Shown here piece after piece: positions 40,966-53,875 of a stretch of 64,000 bases of DNA. The translations under genes were made by a program, and so were the position numbers. This stretch comes from Methanococcus aeolicus Nankai-3. Lineage in GTDB: Archaea; AGJL01; Methanococci; Methanococcales; Methanococcaceae. Where the stretch lies: the NCBI RefSeq assembly GCF_000017185.1, contig NC_009635.1, forward strand, positions 498,563 through 562,562, given 5' to 3'. Positions within the stretch are counted from its first letter, which is position 1. Every line of letters begins with the position of its first letter. The notes beneath the pieces are model-generated. The model saw only the letters and a list, made by a program, of their open reading frames with translations, ran no database searches and was not told the origin of the DNA.

Positions 40966-42081
40966 TTATTCATTCCTAAGTGCCTTTATTGGGTCTAATT
41001 TAGATGCCTTATATGCTGGATAAAGTGCAGAGATTAACGAAGTTGCTATTCCAAATAAAACTCCCAATATCACATAAACTAAACAATCCACCGTTAAAGA
41101 TGCTTTTAATAAATAACACACAATGAGGTAACCAATTCCCAAACTTAAAAATGCCCCAATAAAACTTCCTATAATGCCAAGTATTAGTGATTCATAAAGG
41201 AATATTATCATAATACTTTTTTTCGGAGCTCCGATACTTTTCATAACTCCAATTTCTTTTGTTCTTTCAATTGTGCTCATAAGCATTACATTTCCAATAC
41301 CTATTCCCGCAACCAATAGTGATATTCCTCCCATTCCCATTAAAAACATAGAAAGCATGTTCATGGCATCATTTACAGATTTAAGTATTGTATCCATTGA
41401 CAATATTATTACTTTCTTTTCTTTTTTGTTCATAATTAGTTCAGTTTCGTTTTTAATATTATTTATATTATCTTTATTTTTAACATAAAGCACAACCATT
41501 GAATAATTGCTCCCATAAAATCTATTGTATGTCTTTTGAGATAAAATGATGGAGTTTTGAGAAAGTATAAAAAATGAACTATTGTATATTCCCTTTATCC
41601 TATATGATATATTATTTATTGCAACGGCATCATTTTTATTAACTTCGTTAAAATCTGAAAACATACTATCCGCATAAACGGTTGTATCAGAAAGCTTATT
41701 ATCTACTCCCAAATTTAAATATTTAATATCTTCTTTTTTTATTCCGTAAATAGAAGCATATGTTTTTTTGTTTTTGCCTTTTATATAAATAATATCATTT
41801 TTTGTGCATATTGGTATTACAACACAGTCCAATTTTTTTAATTTAGTTATATCCTTTTTTGTAAAATGTAAATAACCTTCCCCAGAATTTGGAAATACCA
41901 CAACAAAATTAGCAACACCTTCAAAATTTTTGGATATCCCCTGCTTTAATCCGCCGCCCAATATGCCTAATGAGGATATAGCCATAACTCCAATAAGTAT
42001 TCCTAACAATGCTAAAAAACTTCTAAGTTTATGCCGTTTTAAATTCCTCTTAGCCATTTCAAAATACATGTTATTCCTCAT
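40966..42081 (-). CDS. MacB-type ABC transporter permease
   Basis: A protein of about 371 residues (start taken at ATG 42081; 42069 is also possible). One N-terminal helix (KLRSFLALLGILIGVMAISSLGILGGG) precedes a large extracellular MacB core of about 190 residues, followed by three helices (LLVAGIGIGNVMLMSTIERTKEIGVMKSIGAPKKSI is the FtsX motif). It is the permease of the exporter with the ATPase at 43012. It overlaps the membrane-protein gene upstream by about 10-20 bp. Location at the end of the small-peptide island suggests export or self-protection for these peptides. Confidence 0.86.
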   Translation of the reverse strand: MRNNMYFEMAKRNLKRHKLRSFLALLGILIGVMAISSLGILGGGLKQGISKNFEGVANFVVVFPNSGEGYLHFTKKDITKLKKLDCVVIPICTKNDIIYIKGKNKKTYASIYGIKKEDIKYLNLGVDNKLSDTTVYADSMFSDFNEVNKNDAVAINNISYRIKGIYNSSFFILSQNSIILSQKTYNRFYGSNYSMVVLYVKNKDNINNIKNETELIMNKKEKKVIILSMDTILKSVNDAMNMLSMFLMGMGGISLLVAGIGIGNVMLMSTIERTKEIGVMKSIGAPKKSIMIIFLYESLILGIIGSFIGAFLSLGIGYLIVCYLLKASLTVDCLVYVILGVLFGIATSLISALYPAYKASKLDPIKALRNE

Positions 42082-42955
42082 TTTTACCAATAATCTTAAA
42101 AGTCCGAATTAATGAAAGAAAAAATACCAAATATACAAGGTATTCCACTGAATCCACATGGTGATAATATATTGTAAATAATGTAAAAAATATTAACCCT
42201 AATGTTCCTGCTATAAATGAATTTAATAATACAATTTTCCAGCATTCTTTTAAAACACAATCTGTATTTAAATCTTTTTTAAAATTAAGATATATTGAAG
42301 CAGGAATAGACAGTAAGGCACCAATTACATAAATAAATATTTTAAATCCATTAAAATGGTCATAATCTCTGGGATAACCAAAATAATCAGGAGTAATAAA
42401 CACATTGGCCATCCAATACAATGGATAAGATATTAAAAACCATATTATTATGGAAATTGCAATTGTTTTTAGTTTTGATAAAAATGACATACTTTTATTC
42501 TGTAAATCATGTATTTTAAAAAACAAGCCCATTACTAAAACATACCCCATAACACCATCGGATAGATAAAACAAATCTATTGGTATATCTACATTCGTAT
42601 ATATTTTTAAAATATACATACCCATTTTTAAAATCATAAGCAATAATGTTATTTTTAATAAATACTTAATCAATATATTATTTTTTAATAAACCCCCTTT
42701 TATTTTTCTATTCTTAATCATAGGATTATTAATACTGTAATAAGATACTAAAAGCACAGCAAGTATTAAACCAAAAAACATGGCAAAATAGTTAATATCT
42801 ACAAATAGATAGTTGTAATATTCAGGGCTTTTAATGAATAATAACGAAAATAATATTTGGTTTCCAACAACACTAAACAAAAGCCATACCATAGCAGATA
42901 TAATAACTATTTTTTTAACATCAAATGACATACTATCCTTTTTAACATTAATCAT
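42071..42955 (-). CDS. Polytopic membrane protein in the exporter operon
   Basis: A 294-residue protein with about eight hydrophobic helices (VWLLFSVVGNQILFSLLFI, YFAMFFGLILAVLLVSYYS, GYVLVMGLFF, IWFLISYPLYWMANVFI, FIYVIGALLSIPASIYL, AGTLGLIFFTLFTIYY). The middle resembles Yip1-like membrane regions only vaguely and I assign no family. It lies between the ABC ATPase and the permease, so it probably belongs to the same exporter. Confidence 0.65.
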   Translation of the reverse strand: MINVKKDSMSFDVKKIVIISAMVWLLFSVVGNQILFSLLFIKSPEYYNYLFVDINYFAMFFGLILAVLLVSYYSINNPMIKNRKIKGGLLKNNILIKYLLKITLLLMILKMGMYILKIYTNVDIPIDLFYLSDGVMGYVLVMGLFFKIHDLQNKSMSFLSKLKTIAISIIIWFLISYPLYWMANVFITPDYFGYPRDYDHFNGFKIFIYVIGALLSIPASIYLNFKKDLNTDCVLKECWKIVLLNSFIAGTLGLIFFTLFTIYYHHVDSVEYLVYLVFFLSLIRTFKIIGKNEE

Positions 42956-43011: not shown

Positions 43012-43689
43012 CTACTCCTCAACTATTTTTCCATCCCTAATATCTATTATCCTATCGGCAACTTTTCCAACATTTATATCATGAGTAACTACAACAACGG
43101 TCTTTCCAGATTTGTTTAATTTTTTTAGGAGCTCCATAACTTTACCCCCAGTTTTTGAATCCAACGCCCCAGTTGGTTCATCGCACAATAGAACAGGTGC
43201 ATTATTTGCCAAAGCCCGAGCTATTGCCACTCTCTGTTGTTGTCCTCCGCTTAATTGGTTTGGTCTGTGGTTTGCAAATTGTTCATCTAATTCAGCCATT
43301 TTTAGACATTCCAGTGCTCTTTTTTGTTTTTCCTCTGAGCTCATTTCACTTCGGTATTTAAATATTAAGGGGAGCTCCACATTTTCCAATGCACTTAATA
43401 GGGGAATTAGATTAAACTGTTGAAATACAAATCCAATTTTCATTCTTCTAATTTCAGTTAATTGATTATCGTTTAAATCGTTGGTTTTTACATTATCTAT
43501 ATACACTTCTCCCTCATCTGGTTTGTCTAAGCATCCGATAATGTTTAATAGCGTAGATTTCCCGCTTCCACTTGGTCCCATAATTGCTACAAATTCCCCT
43601 TCATCTATTTTTAAACTTACATTATTTAGTGCGTAAATTGTTTCTCCACCTAAATTGTAGGATTTTACCACATTTTTTAATTCAATCAT
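43012..43689 (-). CDS. ABC transporter ATPase, LolD/MacB type
   Basis: A 225-residue ATPase. Walker A GPSGSGKSTLLN (residues about 38-49), Q-loop VFQQFNLIPLLSALENVELPL, signature LSGGQQQRVAIARAL and Walker B VLLCDEPTGALD are all intact. It powers the MacB-type permease downstream. It follows the secreted CARDB-like protein by 11 bp on the same strand. Confidence 0.93.
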   Translation of the reverse strand: MIELKNVVKSYNLGGETIYALNNVSLKIDEGEFVAIMGPSGSGKSTLLNIIGCLDKPDEGEVYIDNVKTNDLNDNQLTEIRRMKIGFVFQQFNLIPLLSALENVELPLIFKYRSEMSSEEKQKRALECLKMAELDEQFANHRPNQLSGGQQQRVAIARALANNAPVLLCDEPTGALDSKTGGKVMELLKKLNKSGKTVVVVTHDINVGKVADRIIDIRDGKIVEE

Positions 43690-43700
43690 TTTTTATCCCC

Positions 43701-45218
43701 TTATTCATTTTTTCTTACAAATCCCCTATATATTAGATAAATAACCCCAATACAGAATAAAACCCCAATTCCTATTATTATATAGTTAATGAATCCTCCA
43801 TTGCTTCCATAATTTTCATTATTACTTATTTGCCCATTTTCAGATATTGAAATATTTTTCTCCATTTTAATTAAATTATTATCTTCATCCCTATATGTAA
43901 TTATAATCGGAACCCCACTTACATTTTCATTAATTTGGCAGTGTAATTCAAAACTTCCATAATCATCAGCATTTAGTGTTCCTACGAAGTAGTTTTCATA
44001 AGGTCTTACAGGAATAATATCATCTGTTCTTTTAATGCTGACCAGTACACTTTTTGCTTTGGTAGTTCCTATGTTGGATAAATCCCCTGTAATAGTTTTT
44101 TCATTCATTCCCCCTACATTTACGCCCGTTAAAACTAATTGCACTTTTCCAATAACATTTATGGAAATATTTTTGTTTATCTCATTTCCATCAAAAATTA
44201 TTTTTATTGGAATTTCTTTAATGCCTATTTCGTTTATTTTTGTTTTAAAGGAAATATTTTCTTTTTCTCCGTGTTTGATAAATAAACTTTTTTGATTATT
44301 GCCCAAATAATATTTTCCAATTGTAATGATAAAATTAGCATCTTTATAGTTGTTCTTTATTGATAATGTAAAGTTATTTACCTCCCCCACAGGATAGTTG
44401 TATTTATTTACTTCCAATTCAACAACATTCTTTGGAATAACTTTAAATATTAAATTTCCAGTCTCTTCAACAATTTTTTGGTTTTTGTAATTATATGTGA
44501 TTGTATTGGAATCCCCTTGTTCTGTCTCTGTTTTATCGGTTAGTTGTAAATCATCATAAGGATTGCTGTGGGTTAATTTATAGGGTAGTTTTACAATACT
44601 ATCTCCACTTGCATAAATTTTAACATCCATTAGTCTTGTTTCACCAGGTTTTATATGGTCAATATATCCCTCTGATAAAGCATATATATGGTTGTCATCG
44701 TTGTTAAATTGCATTTTTATGTTTTGTGCTGTTCCTGTCCCTTTATTTGTTATTTTTAGGTAAATTTTATTTACTCCTTCGTTTATCGTTGGTGGGTTTT
44801 CGATTGTGATTGTTGGAGCTCCCCTAACTGGAATAGTAAATATCCTATTTTCTGAATATTGTTTATTATCCTCTGTGTAGTTGCAGTATGCCACAATTTT
44901 ATAATCCTTTGATGGTGCATCATCTTTAATTTTTATTATAAAATGCCCCACTCCTTTTTCAGATGGAAATAATTGTCCTTCACTGTCTTTTCCTTTGATT
45001 ATTTGTATATAATCTTTACTTTCTCCATAGGGATAAATACCTATTATAGTGTTGTTTATCTCTTTTTCTGGTGTAATTACAACCCACAAATCATAGGTTT
45101 TTGACGGCTCTAAATATTGATTTTTATAGTCAATGCTTGTAAATTCCACCGCATTTAATGTATTTAAAATTAAAAATAAAGATAAAATGGATAAAAAAAT
45201 AAAAAAAGATTTTTTCAT
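43701..45218 (-). CDS. Secreted membrane-anchored protein with repeated beta-sandwich domains
   Basis: A 505-residue protein. Residues 1-23 form a signal peptide (KKSFFIFLSILSLFLILNTLNAVE). The ectodomain has repeats such as ITIENPPTINEGVNKIYLKITNKGTGTAQNIKMQF and LVLTGVNVGGMNEKTITGDLSNIGTTKAKSVLVSI, as in COG1361/CARDB-like S-layer proteins. A transmembrane segment near the C-terminus (FINYIIIGIGVLFCIGVIYLIY) ends in RGFVRKNE. It precedes the exporter ATPase by 11 bp, so it is likely the extracellular part of the exporter, like accessory proteins of bacteriocin transporters. Confidence 0.8.
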   Translation of the reverse strand: MKKSFFIFLSILSLFLILNTLNAVEFTSIDYKNQYLEPSKTYDLWVVITPEKEINNTIIGIYPYGESKDYIQIIKGKDSEGQLFPSEKGVGHFIIKIKDDAPSKDYKIVAYCNYTEDNKQYSENRIFTIPVRGAPTITIENPPTINEGVNKIYLKITNKGTGTAQNIKMQFNNDDNHIYALSEGYIDHIKPGETRLMDVKIYASGDSIVKLPYKLTHSNPYDDLQLTDKTETEQGDSNTITYNYKNQKIVEETGNLIFKVIPKNVVELEVNKYNYPVGEVNNFTLSIKNNYKDANFIITIGKYYLGNNQKSLFIKHGEKENISFKTKINEIGIKEIPIKIIFDGNEINKNISINVIGKVQLVLTGVNVGGMNEKTITGDLSNIGTTKAKSVLVSIKRTDDIIPVRPYENYFVGTLNADDYGSFELHCQINENVSGVPIIITYRDEDNNLIKMEKNISISENGQISNNENYGSNGGFINYIIIGIGVLFCIGVIYLIYRGFVRKNE

Positions 45219-45227
45219 TATTTCACC

Positions 45228-45881
45228 TTATAAGAATTTAGCCACACTGTATAGCTGGTATGCCCCAAATAATACTGTTGGAATTAATGCAACTATAAAT
45301 GCTTTCTTTAACTCCAAATTCCTTGCATATTTTATTCCATAAGTCCATAAGCTCAAATTCCACAAACTAACTGCAATACCTACTAAAAGATTTGTATATA
45401 TCATTGTTTTTGGAAGTATTGAAGACATCACCTGTTTTACAACTGCTGGATTTTGGAGCTGTGCTACTGTTAATGTTGTAATATGAGCACTTGAAAGAAA
45501 ATAATAACCAATTGGTATGGTAATACATAGAGCAATTAAGTTTGCTATGAATCCATAGCCCGTAAATTCGAATGTTCTTTTAAATGAGCCCACTCCTTTG
45601 AATGCCATTGAAATTATATGCATAACTGCGGCTATTAATAACCATGATATAAATCCTCCTACTAGCGAAGATACTGCGGTAATTATTATCATCATTGACA
45701 TCATACCTTGCATATCTGATGGAAATATTTTAAACATTATTGATGTTGTATAGTAAGAATATGCCGACATTAACACTGAGAATATAAGAACTATGAGAAA
45801 AGGTGTTTTGAGAGATACTTCTTTATTTAATAGATATTTGAAAAAATCGTTTGGATTTAAGATTAGTTCTTTTAGGTTCAT
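45228..45881 (-). CDS. Yip1-family membrane protein, copy 1
   Basis: A 217-residue protein with five predicted helices: FLIVLIFSVLMSAYSYYT, MMIIITAVSSLVGGFISWLLIAAVMHII, KRTFEFTGYGFIANLIALCITIPIGYYFL, NLLVGIAVSLWNLSLWTYGIKYA and AFIVALIPTVLFGAYQLYSV. The N-terminus LKELILNPNDFFKYLL is typical of Yip1-domain proteins. A paralog is at 49310-49957. It is 9 bp upstream of the CARDB-like gene and follows a SpoIIM gene, so it is part of the island. Confidence 0.8.
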   Translation of the reverse strand: MNLKELILNPNDFFKYLLNKEVSLKTPFLIVLIFSVLMSAYSYYTTSIMFKIFPSDMQGMMSMMIIITAVSSLVGGFISWLLIAAVMHIISMAFKGVGSFKRTFEFTGYGFIANLIALCITIPIGYYFLSSAHITTLTVAQLQNPAVVKQVMSSILPKTMIYTNLLVGIAVSLWNLSLWTYGIKYARNLELKKAFIVALIPTVLFGAYQLYSVAKFL

Positions 45882-45950: not shown

Positions 45951-46496
45951 TTATGTTAATAAATAATTTGCTATTTCTGGAGTAATATAAACCTCTACGA
46001 AAGCTGCTATAATTATTAATACTATTGAAATTAGTGCCAATTTTAAGAATTCTTTTATATCTTCTTCTGTTATTGGTTTTTCTTTCTTATCTAAGAGATA
46101 AAGAGTTATTTCATAAGGAATTTTAAAGCCAACTGCTCCTGCAATAATAAACCCTAAAAATTCAAAAATTGCATGAGGTATAACATAAGCAACAATATCG
46201 ATTAGTTTTACATTTGAAAGTAATATTGGAATTGATAATCCATTAAAGAATAATATATAAAATGTTGATAATCCAAATGTTAACGAGCCTAATAAAAGCA
46301 TTAAATATACTTTTAAGTTATTTTTTAATATTAAGATAAATTCTTCCAAATTTGATATTTTCTGATGTTTTAGAAGATTATTATTTTCTAAATTTGAATT
46401 GGTTGGTTGTTGATTGATATATATTCCACATAATACGCCTATTATTATACATGATAGAGACATAAATATACAAAATTTGTTTTTAATTGTTCTCAT
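45951..46496 (-). CDS. SpoIIM/DUF95 membrane protein, copy A
   Basis: A protein of about 181 residues; the start at ATG 46496 (MRTIKNK) follows TTGAGGCACA. Helices: FMSLSCIIIGVLCGIYI, NNLKVYLMLLLGSLTFGLSTFYILFFNGLSI, IVAYVIPHAIFEFLGFIIAGAVGFKIPYEI, and ALISIVLIIIAAFVEVYITPEIANYLL. PHAIFE is the family signature motif. DUF95 proteins are conserved in circular-bacteriocin clusters, where they are needed for maturation or export. Three more copies lie in this window. Confidence 0.85.
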   Translation of the reverse strand: MRTIKNKFCIFMSLSCIIIGVLCGIYINQQPTNSNLENNNLLKHQKISNLEEFILILKNNLKVYLMLLLGSLTFGLSTFYILFFNGLSIPILLSNVKLIDIVAYVIPHAIFEFLGFIIAGAVGFKIPYEITLYLLDKKEKPITEEDIKEFLKLALISIVLIIIAAFVEVYITPEIANYLLT

Positions 46497-46533
46497 ATTG
46501 TGCCTCAACAAAAATTACTATTTGATACTACTC

Positions 46534-46956
46534 CTACATATAAAATACATATAAAATAATTGCTACAACCGTTAATAAACTAGTAATAAAAATTATCCCT
46601 AAATTTTTTTTAAATTGAATCCTACTTGGAGTTTCTTCATTTGAACTATTTTCTCCAACCTTAGATAAAGTATTACATAACATCATAATCATTAAATTCA
46701 TCATTAAAATCAGTGCGGATATACCCAGTATTCCATTTGCTCCAATTGGGTCACTTTCAGAAATCATCCAACTAAGAATCCCCAATGCTATACACATCAT
46801 TATAGTTATGCTCGAAAACATAAATATGCGACTTATAATAAAATGAAATGGCATGTTAATCCATTTTTTTTGTATATAATAAAATACGCATAACACGATA
46901 CTAACAGCAATAAATGTTATTATTACTGTTGTATTAGGGTAATTCATTAAATCCAT
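46534..46956 (-). CDS. Small four-helix membrane protein, copy A
   Basis: About 140 residues with four hydrophobic helices (VIITFIAVSIVLCVFYYIQKK, IISRIFMFSSITIMMCIALGIL, GANGILGISALILMMNLMIMM, IIFITSLLTVVAIILYVFYM). ATG 46956 follows GGTGATATA. It stands between the secreted-peptide gene (38 bp or so upstream) and SpoIIM, the place of a candidate immunity protein. It is similar in layout but not obviously in sequence to 48121 and 50546. Function unproven. Confidence 0.62.
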   Translation of the reverse strand: MDLMNYPNTTVIITFIAVSIVLCVFYYIQKKWINMPFHFIISRIFMFSSITIMMCIALGILSWMISESDPIGANGILGISALILMMNLMIMMLCNTLSKVGENSSNEETPSRIQFKKNLGIIFITSLLTVVAIILYVFYM

Positions 46957-47007
46957 TATATCACCATTATACAAAATAAAAAAATAAAAAACTATTAAAA
47001 TGGGTGA

Positions 47008-47328
47008 TTATTTCATTAAAACATACGCACTTACCGTACTTGATACGCCAGCAGCAAATACTACTGCACCAATGCCTGATGCAATAGAAGGGATAGCAAA
47101 TATCGATATCACTGACCCTGCAAAAGCCATATCTTGTAATTTTCCCATAAGTCTGTCATACTCGTTTTTGGTTATTTTTCCCTCATCATACAATTTTTGA
47201 GTATATGCTCCAATTTTTCCATCTGATAACTTGCTAATTTCAGACACTGCAGCAGGTGTAGCAAACACAGCTCCCACCATACAAACCATAGCAATAGCAG
47301 CGAAACCTTTAAGTAAGTTTAACTTCAT
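47008..47328 (-). CDS. Secreted peptide precursor 1 (candidate bacteriocin-like)
   Basis: A 106-residue protein. Residues 1 to about 24 (KLNLLKGFAAIAMVC plus GAVFA) form a signal peptide with a likely cut after AVFA. The mature part of about 80 residues is charged at first (KLYDEGKITKNEYDRLMGKL) and then strongly hydrophobic (AFAGSVISIFAIPSIASG then IGAVVFAAGVSSTVSAYVL). The N-terminal 25 residues are nearly identical to those of two other precursors at 48617 and 51066 while the mature parts differ. The hydrophobic helical core recalls circular bacteriocins such as AS-48; this is inference. Confidence 0.75.
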   Translation of the reverse strand: MKLNLLKGFAAIAMVCMVGAVFATPAAVSEISKLSDGKIGAYTQKLYDEGKITKNEYDRLMGKLQDMAFAGSVISIFAIPSIASGIGAVVFAAGVSSTVSAYVLMK

Positions 47329-47576
47329 AGCTTATTCACCTCCTTTATGGTGGTTAAGTGTTCATTCGGTTGGCTCCGAACATCTGGCACATGTTCATCA
47401 TCGCCAACCTTTTTTCATTTTTCCTTAATGTTTTTAAATAGTGTTTTAATATTTTCTTTAATACCCATATAATTTTTCATTTTTTTCATAACAATAATTA
47501 ATGAAAACTACTATATATATATATATAACGATTTGAATTAAATAGTAAAGTATTTATACGGCAATAGGTTTCCTAA
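47329..47576 (-). promoter_or_regulatory. Conserved promoter and structured 5' leader, copy 1
   Basis: About 250 bp upstream of peptide gene 1, nearly repeated at 48917 and 51450. Read on the minus strand: a TATAAATA box near 47553-47560, a second run of TATATATA near 47516-47528, then a leader ending in GGAGGTGAATAAGC before the ATG. The leader holds a hairpin GGTTGGC ... GAACA ... TGTTC ... GCCAACC (about 47374-47414) some 40-80 nt before the start. This could control translation of the peptide genes. Confidence 0.7.
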
Positions 47577-47580
47577 TTCC

Positions 47581-48108
47581 TTATTTATTTAATAAATAAT
47601 TAGCAATTTTAGGAGTAATATAAACCTCTACGAAAGCTGCTATGATTATTAATACTATTGAAATTAGTGCCAATTTTAGGAATTCTTTTATATCTTCTTC
47701 TGTTATTGGTTTTTCTTTCTTATCTCTTAGATACTGAATAACTTCATACGGGATTTTAAAACCTGCTACTGCTGATATAAGCATTGCTGGAATTTCAAAT
47801 ATACCGTGTGGAATTACTGTTATAATCACAAAAAACCAATTTTTTATTAATGCTAATGCTTTGTATTGAATTGCTAGTGCAAATCCATTATATAATAAAT
47901 TACAAATTACTGGGATTAAAAAAATACCCCCTACTAAATTATAAAACACTATTTTAATATTATTAACTAAAATTCCAAAAAATGAATAGGTCGGTAAAAC
48001 ACTGCATGAATTTATAGATGTACTTTTGAATATATCAAGCGGTATGAATAAACCATAAATAAATCCTATTATGAATAACACGATAGGTAATGTTTTATAT
48101 ATTTTCAT
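47581..48108 (-). CDS. SpoIIM/DUF95 membrane protein, copy B
   Basis: A 175-residue paralog. MKIYKTLPIVLFIIGFIYGLFI is the first helix; VIPHGIFEIPAMLISAVAGFKIPYEVIQYL has the family motif; the C-terminal IKEFLKLALISIVLIIIAAFVEVYITPKIANYLL is almost identical to copy A. Follows the membrane gene at 48121 by 12 bp. The high similarity of its 3' end to those of the other copies suggests recent duplication or gene conversion. Confidence 0.84.
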   Translation of the reverse strand: MKIYKTLPIVLFIIGFIYGLFIPLDIFKSTSINSCSVLPTYSFFGILVNNIKIVFYNLVGGIFLIPVICNLLYNGFALAIQYKALALIKNWFFVIITVIPHGIFEIPAMLISAVAGFKIPYEVIQYLRDKKEKPITEEDIKEFLKLALISIVLIIIAAFVEVYITPKIANYLLNK

Positions 48109-48120
48109 AGTATTCCACTA

Positions 48121-48576
48121 TCAAATTTTTTCAATAAATATATTTAACACACGATATCCCATAGAAAAACAAACTCCTCCTCCATAACTTATTATAAATA
48201 TTAAAATTATACTTTCTGTCTGCGTATATGTCATAGGAAATACAATTAAATATTTAATAACTATTGCTGAAAATATAACAACTAATGGAATTAAAAATAA
48301 AATTATTTTAAAAAACTTTTCTAAATTATTTTTTTCAAATATTACATACTTATCATCTTTATTTACTAAATATTTTGAAGAATAAAGACCAATTAGCATA
48401 CCAATTGCAATGAACATTGTTGAAATATCAAATATATTTTTTAATAAACCCCAGCCATAATTTAACCAGAAATTAAAAACTAGTATGGGAACTATCCATA
48501 ATAATAAACCTTCAATCATTAAAGTTATTCCAACAATAATTGGATTATTTATATATGAGTGTGTAATATCTTTCAT
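48121..48576 (-). CDS. Small four-helix membrane protein, copy B
   Basis: About 151 residues; ATG 48576 follows GGTGATATTT. Four to five hydrophobic helices (VGITLMIEGLLLWIVPILVFNFWL, MFIAIGMLIGLYS, IILFLIPLVVIFSAIVIKYLIVF, IILIFIISYGGGVCF). It is between peptide gene 2 and SpoIIM copy B, the same place as copies A and C. A candidate immunity partner for peptide 2. Not recognised as a named family. Confidence 0.62.
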   Translation of the reverse strand: MKDITHSYINNPIIVGITLMIEGLLLWIVPILVFNFWLNYGWGLLKNIFDISTMFIAIGMLIGLYSSKYLVNKDDKYVIFEKNNLEKFFKIILFLIPLVVIFSAIVIKYLIVFPMTYTQTESIILIFIISYGGGVCFSMGYRVLNIFIEKI

Positions 48577-48616
48577 AAATATCACCAAAAAATAAAATTA
48601 AAATAAAATATGGGTA

Positions 48617-48916
48617 TTATAAAGCAATTCCACCTACTATCATAGGTATTCCAACAATAGCACCTGCTCCTGTGCAGCATGCGGCAGCGCCACCTGTTAT
48701 TAAAGCACCTGAGACTATTATATGTTCTGGAGCTAAAAATGCGTTTACTCCCAATAATGTCTTTCCTGTGGTGGAACCGTGGTATGCTTCATCAGCACTG
48801 TGTGCGAGTTCATATCCAGTATATGCAGAATTAAGGACAGAAGGGGTAGCAAACACAGCTCCTACCATGCAAAGCATAGCCACAGCAGCGAAACCTTTAA
48901 GTAAGTTTAACTTCAT
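48617..48916 (-). CDS. Secreted peptide precursor 2 (candidate bacteriocin-like)
   Basis: A 99-residue protein. The signal peptide (KLNLLKGFAAVAMLC plus GAVFA) matches precursors 1 and 3 almost exactly. The mature part is SVLNSAYTGYELAHSADEAY followed by hydrophobic and Gly-rich helix-forming sequence (HIIVSGALITGGAAACC then TGAGAIVGIPMIVGGIAL), including an adjacent Cys-Cys. The ORF ends directly in the hydrophobic stretch. Downstream membrane and SpoIIM genes complete the cassette. Role as a secreted toxin or bacteriocin is inference from context. Confidence 0.75.
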   Translation of the reverse strand: MKLNLLKGFAAVAMLCMVGAVFATPSVLNSAYTGYELAHSADEAYHGSTTGKTLLGVNAFLAPEHIIVSGALITGGAAACCTGAGAIVGIPMIVGGIAL

Positions 48917-49162
48917 AGTTTGTTCGCCTCCATTATGGTGGTTAAGTGTTCATTCGGTTGGCTCCGAACATTCCCTCAAATGTTCATCATCGCCAACCTT
49001 TTTTCATTTTTCCTTAATGCTTTTAAAGAGTGTTTTAATATTTTCTTTATTATCCCTATAATTTTTCATTTTTTTCATATTATTAATAAATGAAAACTAC
49101 TATATATATATATATAACGATTTGAATTAAATAGAAAAATATTTATACGGCAATAGGTTTCC
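48917..49162 (-). promoter_or_regulatory. Conserved promoter and structured 5' leader, copy 2
   Basis: Almost the same as the regions at 47329 and 51450: TATAAATA box, a long TATATATA run, and the hairpin with GGTTGGC and GCCAACC arms. In this copy the sequence between the arms has a few changes (GAACATTTGAGGGAATGTTC) that keep the inner stem. The GGAGGCGAACAAAC ribosome site precedes the ATG. Confidence 0.7.
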
Positions 49163-49173
49163 TAATGCTCTAT

Positions 49174-49275
49174 CTATTTTAATATTATATTTGCTATTTC
49201 TGGTGTAATATATACTTCTACAAATGCGGCAATGATTATATTATTGATAGGGATGCTAATTTTAGTTAAAAACAT
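49174..49275 (-). pseudogene. SpoIIM C-terminal fragment
   Basis: The minus strand encodes only the last 32 residues or so of a SpoIIM copy (IIIAAFVEVYITPEIANIILK and stop). It sits between Yip1 copy 2 and the leader of peptide gene 2. It is the expected leftover of recombination between SpoIIM gene ends, and shows that the cassettes arose by duplication and loss. Confidence 0.7.
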
Positions 49276-49309
49276 TTAGAAATTTTTTATATTTTTCTCA
49301 TTTGTGGTT

Positions 49310-49957
49310 TTAGCCAAATATAATAGTTAACAACTGCAAACTTATTAATAATAGTAATATCATTATTGTAAGAGATAATGATTTTAAAAATTTTACACAA
49401 TATAGCTGTTTTAACCCCTCTGCCCAAAGTAATGAGCTCCAAATACATGAGATAATATTAATTAAGATTAATACATAATATACTTCATTAGGAATTAATG
49501 CTTCACTTACTGCAAGTAAATATTGCGGATGATTTTGAATAACATGTATTATTTCTGGAGAAATATTATACATACAAGCAAGCCATATAATTAAATAGGC
49601 AATGTTTCCAAATATTATTGGTAAGAATCCATAGCCAACAATTTCTAATGTTTTCTTGAAATTTCCAATTTTTTTAAATAATAGTTTTGCACCAATCCAA
49701 AATATAGAGGTTATTATAAATAATAATAAAAAAGATATACAAACTCCAAAAACAAAAAACATTACAAGCATAGTCAATATAATAATCTTTTCATCATTTT
49801 GAAATATATTCCAAAATCTTAAATATGGTAAAGATGATTGTAAGAATATAGTAAGTCCAAATACTAATGTAATAAATATTGGAATTTTTAGATTATGTTT
49901 ATTTTTTACAGTTTTTTCAAAAAATATTTTGGGAGTTAGTAAAATACTTTTTATCAT
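49310..49957 (-). CDS. Yip1-family membrane protein, copy 2
   Basis: A 215-residue paralog of the protein at 45228, with the same order of helices: IPIFITLVFGLTIFLQSS, IILTMLVMFFVFGVCISFLLLFIITSIFWIG, KKTLEIVGYGFLPIIFGNIAYLII, ILINIISCIWSSLLWAEGLKQL, LSLTIMILLLLISLQLLTII. It follows SpoIIM copy C by 6 bp. Only cassettes A and C carry a Yip1 gene. Confidence 0.8.
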   Translation of the reverse strand: MIKSILLTPKIFFEKTVKNKHNLKIPIFITLVFGLTIFLQSSLPYLRFWNIFQNDEKIIILTMLVMFFVFGVCISFLLLFIITSIFWIGAKLLFKKIGNFKKTLEIVGYGFLPIIFGNIAYLIIWLACMYNISPEIIHVIQNHPQYLLAVSEALIPNEVYYVLILINIISCIWSSLLWAEGLKQLYCVKFLKSLSLTIMILLLLISLQLLTIIFG

Positions 49958-49963
49958 AATTCA

Positions 49964-50530
49964 TCACCTTATTAACTTTAATAAAATATTTGCTATTTTT
50001 GGAGTAATATATACTTCCACATAAGCCGCTATAACAATTAAAAAAATAGATATAAATGCCAATTTTAAGAACTCTTTAATATCTTCCCCTGTTATTGGTT
50101 TTTCTTTTTTATCTAAGAGATAAAGAGTTATTTCGTAAGGAATTTTAAAGCCTGCCGCCCCTGCAATAAACATCGCAGGAATCTCGAAGATTCCATGTGG
50201 AACAATATATAAAAAAGATTGCGTGTCAAAATCAGAAAGGAGTATTGAGTTACATATGCCATTAATAAACAATCCAATAAATGTTGTTATTCCAAAGGAT
50301 AAAAAACCTAAAACAAGAATAAATGTGGATTTGAGATTATTGATAAGTATTGAAATGAAATTATTAAAATTTGAGATATTTCCTCTAACATTATTCTCTT
50401 TTGATAGTGGTTGATCGCTATCATCCAATGAAATATTTATTAATTCCCCAAATACTATCCCTAAAATAAACGAACTGATTGATAGTATAATACAATACTT
50501 GTTTTTGATTATTAAATTTAGAACTTTCAT
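49964..50530 (-). CDS. SpoIIM/DUF95 membrane protein, copy C
   Basis: A protein of about 188 residues (start at ATG 50530; ATG 50542 is an alternative). IILSISSFILGIVFGELI is the first helix, FGITTFIGLFINGICNS the second, and VPHGIFEIPAMFIAGAAGFKIPYEITLYLLDKKEKPITGEDIKEFLKLAFISIFLIVIAAYVEVYITPKIAN carries the motif and the C-terminus shared with copies A and B. Cassette: peptide 3, membrane protein, this gene, Yip1. Confidence 0.84.
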   Translation of the reverse strand: MKVLNLIIKNKYCIILSISSFILGIVFGELINISLDDSDQPLSKENNVRGNISNFNNFISILINNLKSTFILVLGFLSFGITTFIGLFINGICNSILLSDFDTQSFLYIVPHGIFEIPAMFIAGAAGFKIPYEITLYLLDKKEKPITGEDIKEFLKLAFISIFLIVIAAYVEVYITPKIANILLKLIR

Positions 50531-50545
50531 AAATCTTCCCATCGT

Positions 50546-51007
50546 TCATTTGTCCAATACTTTTTTTAATATAATCATCTTAGATAAAGCTAACAGTAAT
50601 GAGAGATATGCCATTAATTCCCACCAGGGAAAATTTGGTTCGAGATTTAGTGTATAATAGATACCCATAATCATAAACACGATACTAGTGCATATTATCG
50701 AATGAATATCCCTTAAATATTCTTCTAAAATCTTCTTTTGAGATTTATCATGGTGAGATATTTTTACAGGTGTAATAAATACGGAGACGATATTATCATC
50801 AACGTGAGATATTTTTATATATGTGATAAATGTAGTGACAATCGTAGCAATCATGATAATTGTATTGAGAATGATGGGTAATATTAAATCTTGAACTATA
50901 TAATAAACTTCAAAAGTTATTGTTAGTAAGCATAATAGGCATAATTCAATGAGTGGGGCATTACAAATAGTTAATAGTATTTTTTTTATTTTTTTGATAA
51001 ATTTCAA
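50546..51007 (-). CDS. Small membrane protein, copy C
   Basis: A 153-residue protein with about four hydrophobic helices (LCLLCLLTITFEVYYIVQDL, NTIIMIATIVTTFITYI, SIICTSIVFMIMGIYYTL, WWELMAYLSLLLALSKMIIL) and a cytoplasmic charged linker that contains a tandem-like repeat (ISHVDDNIVSVFITPVKISHHD). It takes the same place as copies A and B between peptide and SpoIIM. Candidate immunity protein; the differing sequences fit specificity for different peptides, which is inference. Confidence 0.62.
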   Translation of the reverse strand: MKFIKKIKKILLTICNAPLIELCLLCLLTITFEVYYIVQDLILPIILNTIIMIATIVTTFITYIKISHVDDNIVSVFITPVKISHHDKSQKKILEEYLRDIHSIICTSIVFMIMGIYYTLNLEPNFPWWELMAYLSLLLALSKMIILKKVLDK

Positions 51008-51065
51008 AATCCCACCAATTATTAAAATTTAAAAAATATATGAAATTTAATAAAAAATATGAGAA

Positions 51066-51449
51066 TCACCAATAAAGACCACTAGCAATCCTCCTAATAG
51101 AGTATGTAGCAGTAAATGTCCAATAACCAACTCGCAATTTTCCCCCATTACGTACCTCGTCGATGAATCCTGCAAGGTCTTTAGCATCATCTTTGTCAAG
51201 ATATGGGCTTTTAGTTAGTCCGCCAGTAGCATCAGCCATGCTTTTCCACATATTCATGTATTTTTCTAGTTTAGCTTTGTTTTCCGGTGTAACTTCACCA
51301 CTATCATAGGCTGCTTTAGTATATTGAAAATATACATTTTTTGTAACTCCATTTTGGAAATTATTTGAAGTCATAGGTGTAGCAAACACAGCTCCTACCA
51401 CACATAGCATGGCAACAGCAGCGAAACCTTTAAGTAAGTTTAACTTCAT
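51066..51449 (-). CDS. Secreted peptide precursor 3 (candidate bacteriocin-like)
   Basis: A 127-residue protein with the shared signal peptide (KLNLLKGFAAVAMLC plus GAVFA). The mature part of about 103 residues is more hydrophilic than those of peptides 1 and 2: charged middle (YFQYTKAAYDSGEVTPENKAKLEKYMNMW) and an aromatic, basic end (LRVGYWTFTATYSIRRIASGLYW). It therefore may not be a circular bacteriocin; it could be a different secreted effector using the same export cassette. Confidence 0.72.
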   Translation of the reverse strand: MKLNLLKGFAAVAMLCVVGAVFATPMTSNNFQNGVTKNVYFQYTKAAYDSGEVTPENKAKLEKYMNMWKSMADATGGLTKSPYLDKDDAKDLAGFIDEVRNGGKLRVGYWTFTATYSIRRIASGLYW

Positions 51450-51742
51450 AGCCTATTCACCTCCTTTAAGTTTTTAAGGGAGTAAGTTCCAAAGGCTCAG
51501 AACCTATAAATGTTCATCACAGCCAAAGGGTTGGCTCCGAACATCTCGCACATGTTCATCATCGCCGACCTTTTATTTTTCATTTTTCCTAAATACTTTT
51601 AAAGTGTGTTTTAATATTTTTTTTATTACCCCCCATAATTTTTCATTTTTTTCATAACAATAATTAATGAAAACACCTACATATATATATATATAACGAT
51701 TTGAATTAAATAGAAAAATATTTATACGGCAATAAGTTTCCT
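51450..51742 (-). promoter_or_regulatory. Conserved promoter and structured 5' leader, copy 3
   Basis: Third copy of the region before the peptide genes. The TATAAATA and TATATATA runs and the GGTTGGC-type hairpin are kept, but an extra segment of about 40 bp (near 51476-51520, including TTGGCTGTGATGAACATT) is present, which looks like a partial duplication of the hairpin. The ribosome site is GGAGGTGAATAGGC. Confidence 0.68.
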
Positions 51743-51744
51743 AA

Positions 51745-52419
51745 TGCCTTAGTTATTTAATATTAAATCTGCTATCACCTGAATGAAATGAAGGTGAGCT
51801 ATAAAACTCGAAGAGTTTTATTCAATTTTTGGTGTAATATAAACTTCTACGAAAGAAACTTCTACGAAAGCGACTATAACGATTAATATTATTGAAATTA
51901 AAGCTAATTTTAAGAATTCTTTTGTATCTTCTTCCGTTAGTGGTTTTTCTTTTCGCTTGCTACGCAAGCGAGCAACGAAAACCAAAGATTTTCGTCTAAT
52001 TTATCCATTAAATATTGGATAACTTCATACGGTATTTTAAAACCTGCCACTGCTGATATAAGCATTGCTGGAATTTCAAATATGCCATGTGGAAGGATTA
52101 AACCAGCAATAAGTTTTAACGGTTCATTAGTTTGAAAAGTAGAACCAATTAAAACGCCAACATTAAAACCATTAAATATTAAGTTTATAAAAGTAGATAA
52201 ACCGAAGGTTATAGAACCTGCCAACATTAAAAAGATAACTTTTAAATTATTTATTAAAATTGTAGGAAATTTGAATTTTATATTTAACTTTTGATTTATT
52301 TCTTCTCCTTTGTAGTTTTTTGAAAAGTCGTTTATGAATAAGTCGTTTATGAATATAATGACTGAGATGAAACCTATTGAGAAGATTAGGATTGTTAGTA
52401 TCGATGGTAGTTTTTTCAT
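51745..52419 (-). pseudogene. SpoIIM/DUF95 gene, copy D, broken by palindromic insertions
   Basis: The first 140 or so residues are intact (SILTILIFSIGFISVIIFI, then ILPHGIFEIPAMLISAVAGFKIPYEVIQYLMDKLDE), but the frame then runs into inserted DNA and stops at 51937. Compared with copies A-C, about 45 bp including CGCTTGC-TAC-GCAAGCG and a second hairpin (near 51952-51994) has entered just before the KEKPITEED region. A second insert with ATAAAACTC-GAA-GAGTTTTAT lies at about 51779-51822, and a 15-bp stretch (AAACTTCTACGAAAG) is duplicated. The decayed C-terminal part is still readable in other frames. No peptide gene precedes this copy. Confidence 0.8.
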
Positions 52420-52443
52420 GGTTTCACAAATTATTGTAATTAA

Positions 52444-52638
52444 TTATAAGTTGTCATTAGTTCTAAAAAATTTAATAAAAAATATTGTTATCTTTAATAA
52501 AATCATAATAACTAATAATCCCATAATCAATGTTTTATAATGGGATTCTAAATTAAACATTAAAATAAGAAGAATTCCAAATAATATATACCAAATATGC
52601 CAATATAATTTACGATATGTTTTTTTATTGTTGTTCAT
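52444..52638 (-). CDS. Short membrane protein, remnant of cassette D
   Basis: From ATG 52638 about 64 residues with two hydrophobic helices (YWHIWYILFGILLILMFNL and LIMGLLVIMILLKITIFFI). The longer frame to 52680 would begin in the end of an IS remnant. It is half the size of the other cassette membrane proteins and stands before the broken SpoIIM copy D. Probably a decaying gene; expression is doubtful. Confidence 0.45.
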   Translation of the reverse strand: MNNNKKTYRKLYWHIWYILFGILLILMFNLESHYKTLIMGLLVIMILLKITIFFIKFFRTNDNL

Positions 52639-52667
52639 AGTTTTCCCCAATAAAGAAAAAATATATT

Positions 52668-53292
52668 TAGTATGGGTCAAAATATATATAACCTATACTA
52701 AATATAATATTATAAAAAAGACGATATTATGAAGGCTGAGGAAGTGGTAAATTGAACAAAAACCTAACGGTTTTTGTAGCTCTTCGCTCCTTCGGAAAGA
52801 TAGGATATAACAGTGAAGGAATGTTTAAAGGCTTTAAATTACATTTAGCAGTAGATAAGTTAGGAATACCATTAAGAATAGAATTTACCACAGGAAATAC
52901 TCATGATTATAAAGTAGCTGATAAATTATTAGTATGCACTAAGAAATCATGTGCAGATGCAGGCTATGATAAAAGATTTAAAAAAGTGATGGAATTATAC
53001 GAAAACGAACGGATAACTGCCCACAATTCAAGAAGATTAGTGGGGAAGAAAAATAAAAAGAAGCTTCCCAAATTGATATCTAAGAATTAGGGTTAAAATA
53101 GAACATACCAATTCCATATTAAAAAACAGATTTATGAATAAGTATTGGATTAATATCAAAGGTTATATTCTTAAAAAAGTATTCTGTCTCTGTGCAGTAG
53201 TTTCTGCACAGGTTTTAGCATTATATAACCTCATTATGTGGTTATCCTTATATGAAAGTCTTAGAGGTTAGAGTGTAATATGATCCATACTA
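52668..53292 (+). mobile_element. Degenerate IS element, DDE transposase (IS5/IS4-like)
   Basis: Imperfect inverted ends TAGTATGGGTCA (52668) and TGATCCATACTA (53281). The transposase reads from about 52729 but is broken: a stop soon after MKAEEVVN, then an insertion of a hairpin (ACAAAAACC-TAAC-GGTTTTTGT at 52757-52778). The best frame is 52752-53090, containing GMFKGFKLHLAVDKLGIPLRIEFTTGNTHDYKVADKLL and DAGYDKRFKKVMEL, typical of DDE transposases; the C-terminal part continues in other frames to about 53270. It is too short for an active element. It has landed just upstream of cassette D and may have removed its peptide gene. Confidence 0.75.
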
Positions 53293-53327: not shown

Positions 53328-53875
53328 TATGTTTAAAAAAATTATAATTTTAATAGGAATTTTTAGTTTATTTGGGAATGGTTTATGGTGAAATCTGGAA
53401 TGATATAAAATATCCTGAAAATAATTCCACCACCAAAGATACTAATGTGATATTTAATAAGATACTAATGTGATATTTAATAAGATACTAATGTGATATT
53501 TAATTTTCTAGAAGATTTTGAGAAAATAAATAAAATAAAAATTGAAATTCTTGCATATTATGTGGATAATACAAATAATAATATATCTTATGATAATGTT
53601 TATGTAGATAATGTAGAATTGTGGAAATTAATAAGTAAGGATAATGGAAATTCAACAACAATATTTAAGATTAATTACCACAAAGCAGAAAATATTTTGA
53701 ATGATAGATAATTAACCTAACAGTTGATAAAAATCCAACAAATGATAAAATTCAAATTAAATATATTAACTTAACAGTGGATTATACCTGACTCAAACAT
53801 CAAAACACCAATCCCAACTCCTGCAATAATTATCAGCATTTTAGCAATATCTATTATAATACTAAAAGATAGATA
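53328..53875 (+). pseudogene. Decayed secreted protein gene with 23-bp tandem repeats
   Basis: Starts with a signal-like stretch (FKKIIILIGIFSLFG), then frameshifts into GEIWNDIKYPENNSTTKDTN. Three copies of a 23-bp repeat beginning GATACTAATGTG (53438, 53461, 53484) shift the frame again. The next frame (53493-53711) reads FLEDFEKINKIKIEILAYYVDN and on to KINYHKAENILN. The end, up to 53875, encodes a Pro-rich stretch and a terminal hydrophobic helix (TPIPTPAIIISILAISIIIILKD), as in surface-anchored proteins. Not functional as it stands. Confidence 0.6.

Follow-up and report, generated by a model that had tools for sequence, protein, structure and literature searches.

Exchangeable peptide cassettes behind a conserved kink-turn leader: a candidate archaeal bacteriocin-like array in Methanococcus aeolicus Nankai-3

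A 64,000-nt window of the Methanococcus aeolicus Nankai-3 genome (a single contig of 1,569,500 bases, labeled G000 below) carries on its minus strand an array of three units, each made of a precursor peptide gene, a small membrane protein gene and a SpoIIM gene. A Yip1 gene also lies inside unit 3 and is absent from the other two unit bodies, and a set of genes for Yip1, a CARDB-like protein, an ABC ATPase, a membrane protein and a MacB/FtsX permease occurs once at the array end. The units begin with a common promoter, kink-turn leader RNA and signal peptide, behind which unrelated cassettes appear to be exchanged. The array is likely to be an archaeal set of bacteriocin-like cassettes whose translation is controlled through a kink-turn, probably by L7Ae; antimicrobial activity and L7Ae binding are predictions.

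Base-by-base alignment and a repeat search locate the three constant regions on the minus strand, at roughly 47.25-47.82, 48.84-49.24 and 51.37-51.76 kb. In a comparison of unit 1 with unit 2, the promoter (90% identity), the 5' part of the leader (93%), the kink-turn (88%), the Shine-Dalgarno region (90%) and the signal peptide (92%) are conserved, whereas the mature peptide (37%), the membrane protein (46%) and the N-terminal part of SpoIIM (48%) show only the level expected of unrelated AT-rich DNA under forced global alignment; identity is back to 81% over the last 80 SpoIIM codons. Among the three units the similarity ends abruptly after codon 25, two codons past the predicted signal-peptidase site. 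The initial annotation had described three nearly identical starts, signal peptide included, followed by unrelated DNA, and the alignment agrees on both points (about 90% identity from the promoter through codon 25) and gives a sharp drop rather than a gradual decay into the mature region. Its description of the SpoIIM 3' ends as identical went too far: two share 98% over their best 97 bp and the other two copies reach 80-88%. A chance origin of the likeness is excluded: each repeat is hundreds of bases long, and exactly three copies of the signal peptide exist in the 1.57-Mb genome. The promoter element CTATTTAATTCAAATCGTTATATA likewise has three matches in this genome, all at the three units; the element, which precedes a TATA-like run, has 22 exact matches in 36 genomes, and the reversed-pattern control has 0. 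Together the SpoIIM C-terminal end, promoter, leader and signal peptide run on without a break over up to 565 bp. An orphan SpoIIM 3' end, left as a scar immediately before the unit 2 promoter (Table 1), shows that the SpoIIM end belongs to this constant block and that the block moves as a single piece. The leader of unit 3 is about 47 bp longer, and its extra piece contains a second kink-turn. The mature peptide, membrane protein and N-terminal part of SpoIIM together make up a variable cassette, unrelated between units. Two solitary constant parts were seen in genome G023, namely a promoter-element copy (G023:C2:527179-527202) and a leader copy (G023:C2:445699-445742), each with no signal-peptide ORF behind it.

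The clearest case of exchange between species comes from G029, a Methanothermococcus metagenome-assembled genome (MAG). Unit 1 and contig NZ_WAKW01000019 of this genome are identical at 1142 of 1143 bases (47280-46138), with a perfect run of 972 bp. The two ends of this block fall within the signal peptide and within the SpoIIM C-terminal end, as expected from the initial annotation, which had taken the SpoIIM 3' end for the second homology arm. Outside the block, the arms show 85-97% identity, and the flanking genes Yip1 (86%), CARDB (87%), ATPase (92%) and FtsX (82%) are similarly diverged; the membrane protein at 42.1-43.0 kb (97%) is an exception. That G029 is a MAG weighs against this case, yet a chimera would require two switches within one contig. 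Evidence for exchange independent of such a genome comes from G023 and G006, which belong to two genera, G006 being in another family (f2). Their DNA is 80% identical in the peptide core, 80% in the membrane protein and 83% in SpoIIM, and 46% in the leader and 57% in the signal peptide, so that one cargo stands behind two leaders with an identity step at the signal peptide.

Over 31 units, cargo similarity is strongly correlated with membrane protein similarity (Mantel r = 0.83, p = 0.0002) and shows no correlation with signal peptide similarity (Mantel r = 0.05, p = 0.13). Signal peptide identity is higher within genomes (0.88) than between genomes (0.56, p = 0.0002), whereas cargo similarity within a genome is no higher than between genomes. 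In a tree of the arms, G023 and G003 each have a clade of their own (100/99 for G023), and four G003 arms are identical or nearly so, each with a different cargo. These results show that the constant arms are homogenized within a genome; because the arms of M. aeolicus and G029, two close species, are intermixed in the tree, homogenization is not separable between these two genomes. Relatives also carry arrays, with five units in a row in G023 (which we take to be M. okinawensis), five in G003 (presumably M. infernus) and three in G029, each followed by the Yip1-CARDB-ATPase-permease export cassette, which is conserved in G023, G029, G034 and G003. G004, which we assume to be the model species M. 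jannaschii, appears to carry one unit; G035 is taken to be Methanotorris igneus. In G000, G023 and G029 a unit of the unit 1 type stands last, next to the export cassette, and the cargos upstream of it differ, so the same flanks with different cargo are found in these three genomes, a pattern that the initial annotation had proposed to look for in related strains. It is very probable that exchange took place through homologous arms, and the sequence comparisons show that the variable cassette recombines as a whole between two constant arms, both within an array and across species. The cassette exchange already suspected from the M. aeolicus sequence is thus borne out by the 1.14-kb block, the independence of cargo and signal peptide and the cargo found behind two leaders.

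Two other accounts of a constant start joined to variable cargo were weighed against exchange through the arms. In plain tandem duplication and divergence, the start would be kept by purifying selection while the cargo diverged fast, and no cassette would be exchanged. Such an origin fits the direct repeats of the array and the constraint to be expected on a promoter and a signal peptide, and it is nevertheless very unlikely, since arms from one genome resemble each other more than they do arms from other genomes despite cargo orthologues, an almost identical cassette is shared by two species with diverged arms and flanks, and the same cargo follows different leaders in two genera. As a complete account it was rejected on the 1.14-kb block, the arm tree, the Mantel tests and the G023/G006 case. 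Site-specific exchange by an integron, a diversity-generating retroelement or the like, for which a constant start with variable cargo is typical, seems even more improbable than duplication: the boundaries fall inside long homologous arms, and no reverse transcriptase or integrase is among the named genes of the locus, for which no systematic search was made.

The leader in all units folds into a stem-loop with the order C-helix, GAU bulge, GA, inner helix, NGA and C-helix, which is a standard kink-turn. The 3-nt bulge and the tandem G.A/A.G core are present in nearly all seed rows, one row having A for the first G. The inner helix is replaced between genera with pairing kept (GAACAU/AUGUUC, GAAUAG/CUAUUC, GCCUC/GAGGC and GGAC/GUCC). 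Among 19 sequences, 31 cells changed on both sides versus 10.7 in shuffles; both helices covary, the inner one at 5 of 6 pairs. The paired fraction drops from 87.5% to at most 42% in slid controls, and rule-based kink-turns occur in 0.2% of shuffled leaders. An RNA model, searched phylum-wide in the same 36 genomes, gives 47 sites of the leader type, spread over 15 genomes of the order (E ≤ 2.9e-4, tandem copies merged and matches of box C/D type set aside), 19 of them in eight genomes that contributed no sequence to the model; none came from the same-family genus g2. At 45 of the 47 sites this type of signal peptide follows within 22-81 nt (control, 38/1000), some of these followers being frameshifted or cut by a contig end; one of the remaining two sites is at a contig end. 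Downstream of most sites, other genomes included, there is a SpoIIM gene. The turns lie about 20-80 nt upstream of the start codon, and many leaders have a second one. The conserved leader therefore folds into a standard kink-turn, in one or two copies. The weak model matches that were set aside resemble box C/D RNAs, in which this turn also occurs, and one conserved small RNA of this type is suggested in five f2 genomes (G004:C1:35368, G005:C1:572269, G002:C1:1163985, G010:C3:40371 and G012:C159:1381). The kink-turn leader and signal peptide type are also shared by secreted proteins of 240-390 aa with no same-strand SpoIIM downstream (L033:3207-4085, L038:7338-8150 and kink-turn sites in G014, G007 and G034:C85), which appear to be a second cargo class.

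L7Ae is known to repress translation by way of leader kink-turns marked by tandem G.A pairs and a GAU bulge (PMC5539422, PMC6298567), L7Ae-family genes are present in M. aeolicus, and the leader core, with its GAU bulge and tandem G.A/A.G pairs, is the same as the consensus of L7Ae-bound leaders in PMC6298567. Downstream of the kink-turn lies a short hairpin (CCACC/GGTGG, TCACC/GGTGA and CTCCCTTAA/TTAAAGGAG), whose 3' arm is the Shine-Dalgarno sequence. L7Ae may thus bind the leader kink-turn or kink-turns and set translation, and the hairpin covering the Shine-Dalgarno sequence would act together with them. By this analogy, control of the leader by L7Ae has about an even chance of being correct.

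For the peptides, a bacteriocin-like function is likely by analogy with known clusters. Three intact SpoIIM genes (PF01944, E about 1e-26) stand beside transporter and Yip1 genes with ABC_tran, FtsX/MacB and Yip1 matches (Pfam, NCBIfam), and circular-bacteriocin clusters combine a precursor, SpoIIM, a transporter and often Yip1 (PMC8659200). Gene content suggests that the mature peptides are secreted, with cleavage near A23, and that competing microbes are their probable targets. SpoIIM, Yip1 and the MacB-type ABC cassette would mature, export or protect, as in circular-bacteriocin clusters (PMC8659200, PMC6131525, PMC3942455), and the small membrane protein would be the cognate partner, most likely for immunity, or else a maturation factor. 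No relative of the unit 1 peptide was found in viral contigs. A sequence match of this peptide to a coronavirus spike helix in the PDB (E 1.3e-4) was regarded as a chance helix-to-helix match, because only 41 residues were covered and there was no fold match.

Several results weigh against these functional readings. For the peptides, SpoIIM is used outside bacteriocins too; 11 precursors match no known bacteriocin family (Pfam at E up to 1, NCBIfam at 0.1-1); checked for a saposin-like or helical-bundle fold, single-sequence AlphaFold models of two cores are helical with poor pLDDT (41 and 59), and Foldseek with the better of these poor models gives no match at E 0.001. The peptides could instead serve in signaling, adhesion or the envelope, being secreted with the help of the SpoIIM/ABC machinery and diversified for strain recognition. 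This is supported by the lack of a family match and by the 240-390 aa secreted proteins behind the same type of leader and signal peptide, and it is rather unlikely given that circular-bacteriocin clusters have this gene set, that cargo is linked to the membrane protein as toxin and immunity would predict, and that several cargos adjoin in one genome. For the leader, the mean z of the Shine-Dalgarno hairpin is 1.5, scored against mononucleotide shuffles, which is weaker support than for the kink-turn, and its stability at growth temperature is uncertain because it is short; the kink-turn helix itself does not occlude the Shine-Dalgarno sequence, unlike in l7ae leaders; and no kink-turn was found by a simple rule ahead of the L7Ae-family genes of this genome. 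A leader not controlled by L7Ae, in which the role of the kink-turn is to stabilize the mRNA or to recruit a different protein or, as riboswitches do, a ligand, is a serious if less probable alternative. The position of the turn upstream of the start with the Shine-Dalgarno sequence uncovered, the presence of kink-turns in riboswitches and the sharing of the motif with box C/D-type RNAs all fit it; the match of the core to the L7Ae-bound consensus does not. Rfam also gives no leader family, over the whole window at the gathering score and over the region at E up to 5, so the leader is no known riboswitch.

To our knowledge, peptide weapons of methanogens are hardly known. In the searched literature we found no SpoIIM-linked peptide arrays in Methanococcales, and no combination of a swappable-cargo array with a kink-turn leader; the paper by Makarova and co-workers on peptide weapons of archaea (mBio 2019) may list some of the peptides. 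More tentatively, the arrays might form an order-wide modular weapon system, in which the kink-turn leader and signal peptide serve as a landing pad, peptide-plus-immunity cassettes are traded across genera and L7Ae sets the translation of every cassette; as L7Ae is a ribosomal protein, peptide production would then follow ribosome supply. If the bacteriocin-like reading is right, the arrays would offer dozens of candidate peptides from thermophiles and a clear archaeal case of cassette exchange through homologous arms, and the kink-turn leader would make L7Ae control of non-ribosomal genes directly testable.

The features of the locus are listed in Table 1. The SpoIIM gene of a decayed fourth unit is broken by two short palindrome-rich inserts (51775-51815 and 51953-51999), and the core AAGCGAGCAACGAAAACC of the latter has two copies in the genome. 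Beside this unit are decayed-transposase-like fragments at 52752-53280, their family not confirmed, and a 23-bp perfect tandem repeat (AAGATACTAATGTGATATTTAAT) occurs three times at 53436-53504. The membrane protein gene of unit 3 holds a 51-nt tandem duplication (73%) at 50747-50848.

Table 1. Features of the array and its neighborhood, in window coordinates
Feature	Position	Strand	Basis
Unit 3 precursor peptide, 127 aa	51066..51449	-	signal peptide 51375-51449, 24/25 = consensus
Unit 3 small membrane protein (putative immunity/accessory)	50546..51007	-	position; no Pfam family
Unit 3 SpoIIM protein	49964..50542	-	PF01944 E 2.3e-27
Unit 3 Yip1 membrane protein	49310..49957	-	PF04893 E 1.8e-17
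Orphan SpoIIM 3' end, immediately ahead of unit 2 promoter	49180..49264	-	repeat family D6
Unit 2 precursor peptide, 99 aa	48617..48916	-	ORF
Unit 2 small membrane protein	48121..48588	-	84% identity to G023 counterpart, cargo there 86%
Unit 2 SpoIIM protein	47581..48108	-	PF01944 E 2.2e-27
Unit 1 constant block (homology arm): SpoIIM C-terminal codons, promoter, leader RNA, signal peptide	47254..47817	-	repeats, alignment
Unit 1 promoter element CTATTTAATTCAAATCGTTATATA	47522..47545	-	copies 49111-49134, 51690-51713
Unit 1 leader kink-turn stem-loop	47368..47409	-	covariation, RNA model
Unit 2 leader kink-turn stem-loop	48956..48998	-	RNA model
Unit 3 leader, first kink-turn	51529..51570	-	RNA model
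Unit 3 leader, second kink-turn	51490..51528	-	RNA model
Unit 1 putative Shine-Dalgarno-sequestering hairpin ACCACC/GGAGGT	47338..47354	-	hairpin scoring
Unit 1 precursor peptide, 106 aa	47008..47328	-	ORF
Unit 1 small membrane protein	46534..46974	-	DNA 100% identity to G029
Unit 1 SpoIIM protein	45951..46511	-	PF01944 E 2.4e-26
Yip1 membrane protein, array end	45228..45881	-	PF04893 E 3.2e-25
Large secreted/membrane-anchored protein	43701..45218	-	weak CARDB match; kept beside ABC genes in G023, G029, G034, G003
ABC transporter ATPase, MacB/LolD type	43012..43689	-	PF00005 E 9.2e-39; best NCBIfam = MacB 1.1e-73
Export-cassette membrane protein	42071..42955	-	ORF, conserved context
MacB/FtsX-type permease	40966..42090	-	PF02687 E 1.5e-20; PF12704 E 8.4e-14
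Decayed fourth unit: small membrane protein and broken SpoIIM	51818..52680	-	ORFs, family matches

Three known systems resemble the array in part. Like clusters for circular (head-to-tail) bacteriocins such as enterocin AS-48 (SpoIIM/DUF95), it has a small precursor with an N-terminal leader, SpoIIM, small hydrophobic proteins and an accessory ABC transporter; Yip1 is shared with many of those clusters, and some of them have up to three precursor copies (PMC8659200, PMC6131525, PMC3942455). The array differs from them in being archaeal, in having precursors outside the known circular-bacteriocin families, in its kink-turn leader, in a near-unchanged signal peptide common to all cargos and in the apparent exchange of whole cassettes between homology arms. 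Because the precursors match no bacteriocin model, we place it as working like a circular-bacteriocin cluster and not as a member. As in archaeal leaders regulated by L7Ae, a GAU bulge and tandem G.A/A.G pairs precede the Shine-Dalgarno sequence within the 5' UTR (PMC5539422, PMC6298567). The leader of the array differs from them: its C-helix is longer and stabler, it often has two tandem kink-turns and a separate Shine-Dalgarno hairpin, and it is attached to a family of export peptides and not to l7ae. With polymorphic toxins the array shares a constant N-terminal delivery part, an exchangeable C-terminal cargo and a linked immunity-like gene, as seen in the Mantel tests and the block exchange. 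Its cargo, however, is a hydrophobic peptide of 50-100 aa and not an enzymatic domain, with no recognizable enzymatic toxin domain in the precursors by Pfam, and every unit comes with a promoter and a SpoIIM gene of its own, the N-terminal part of SpoIIM being taken into the exchange.

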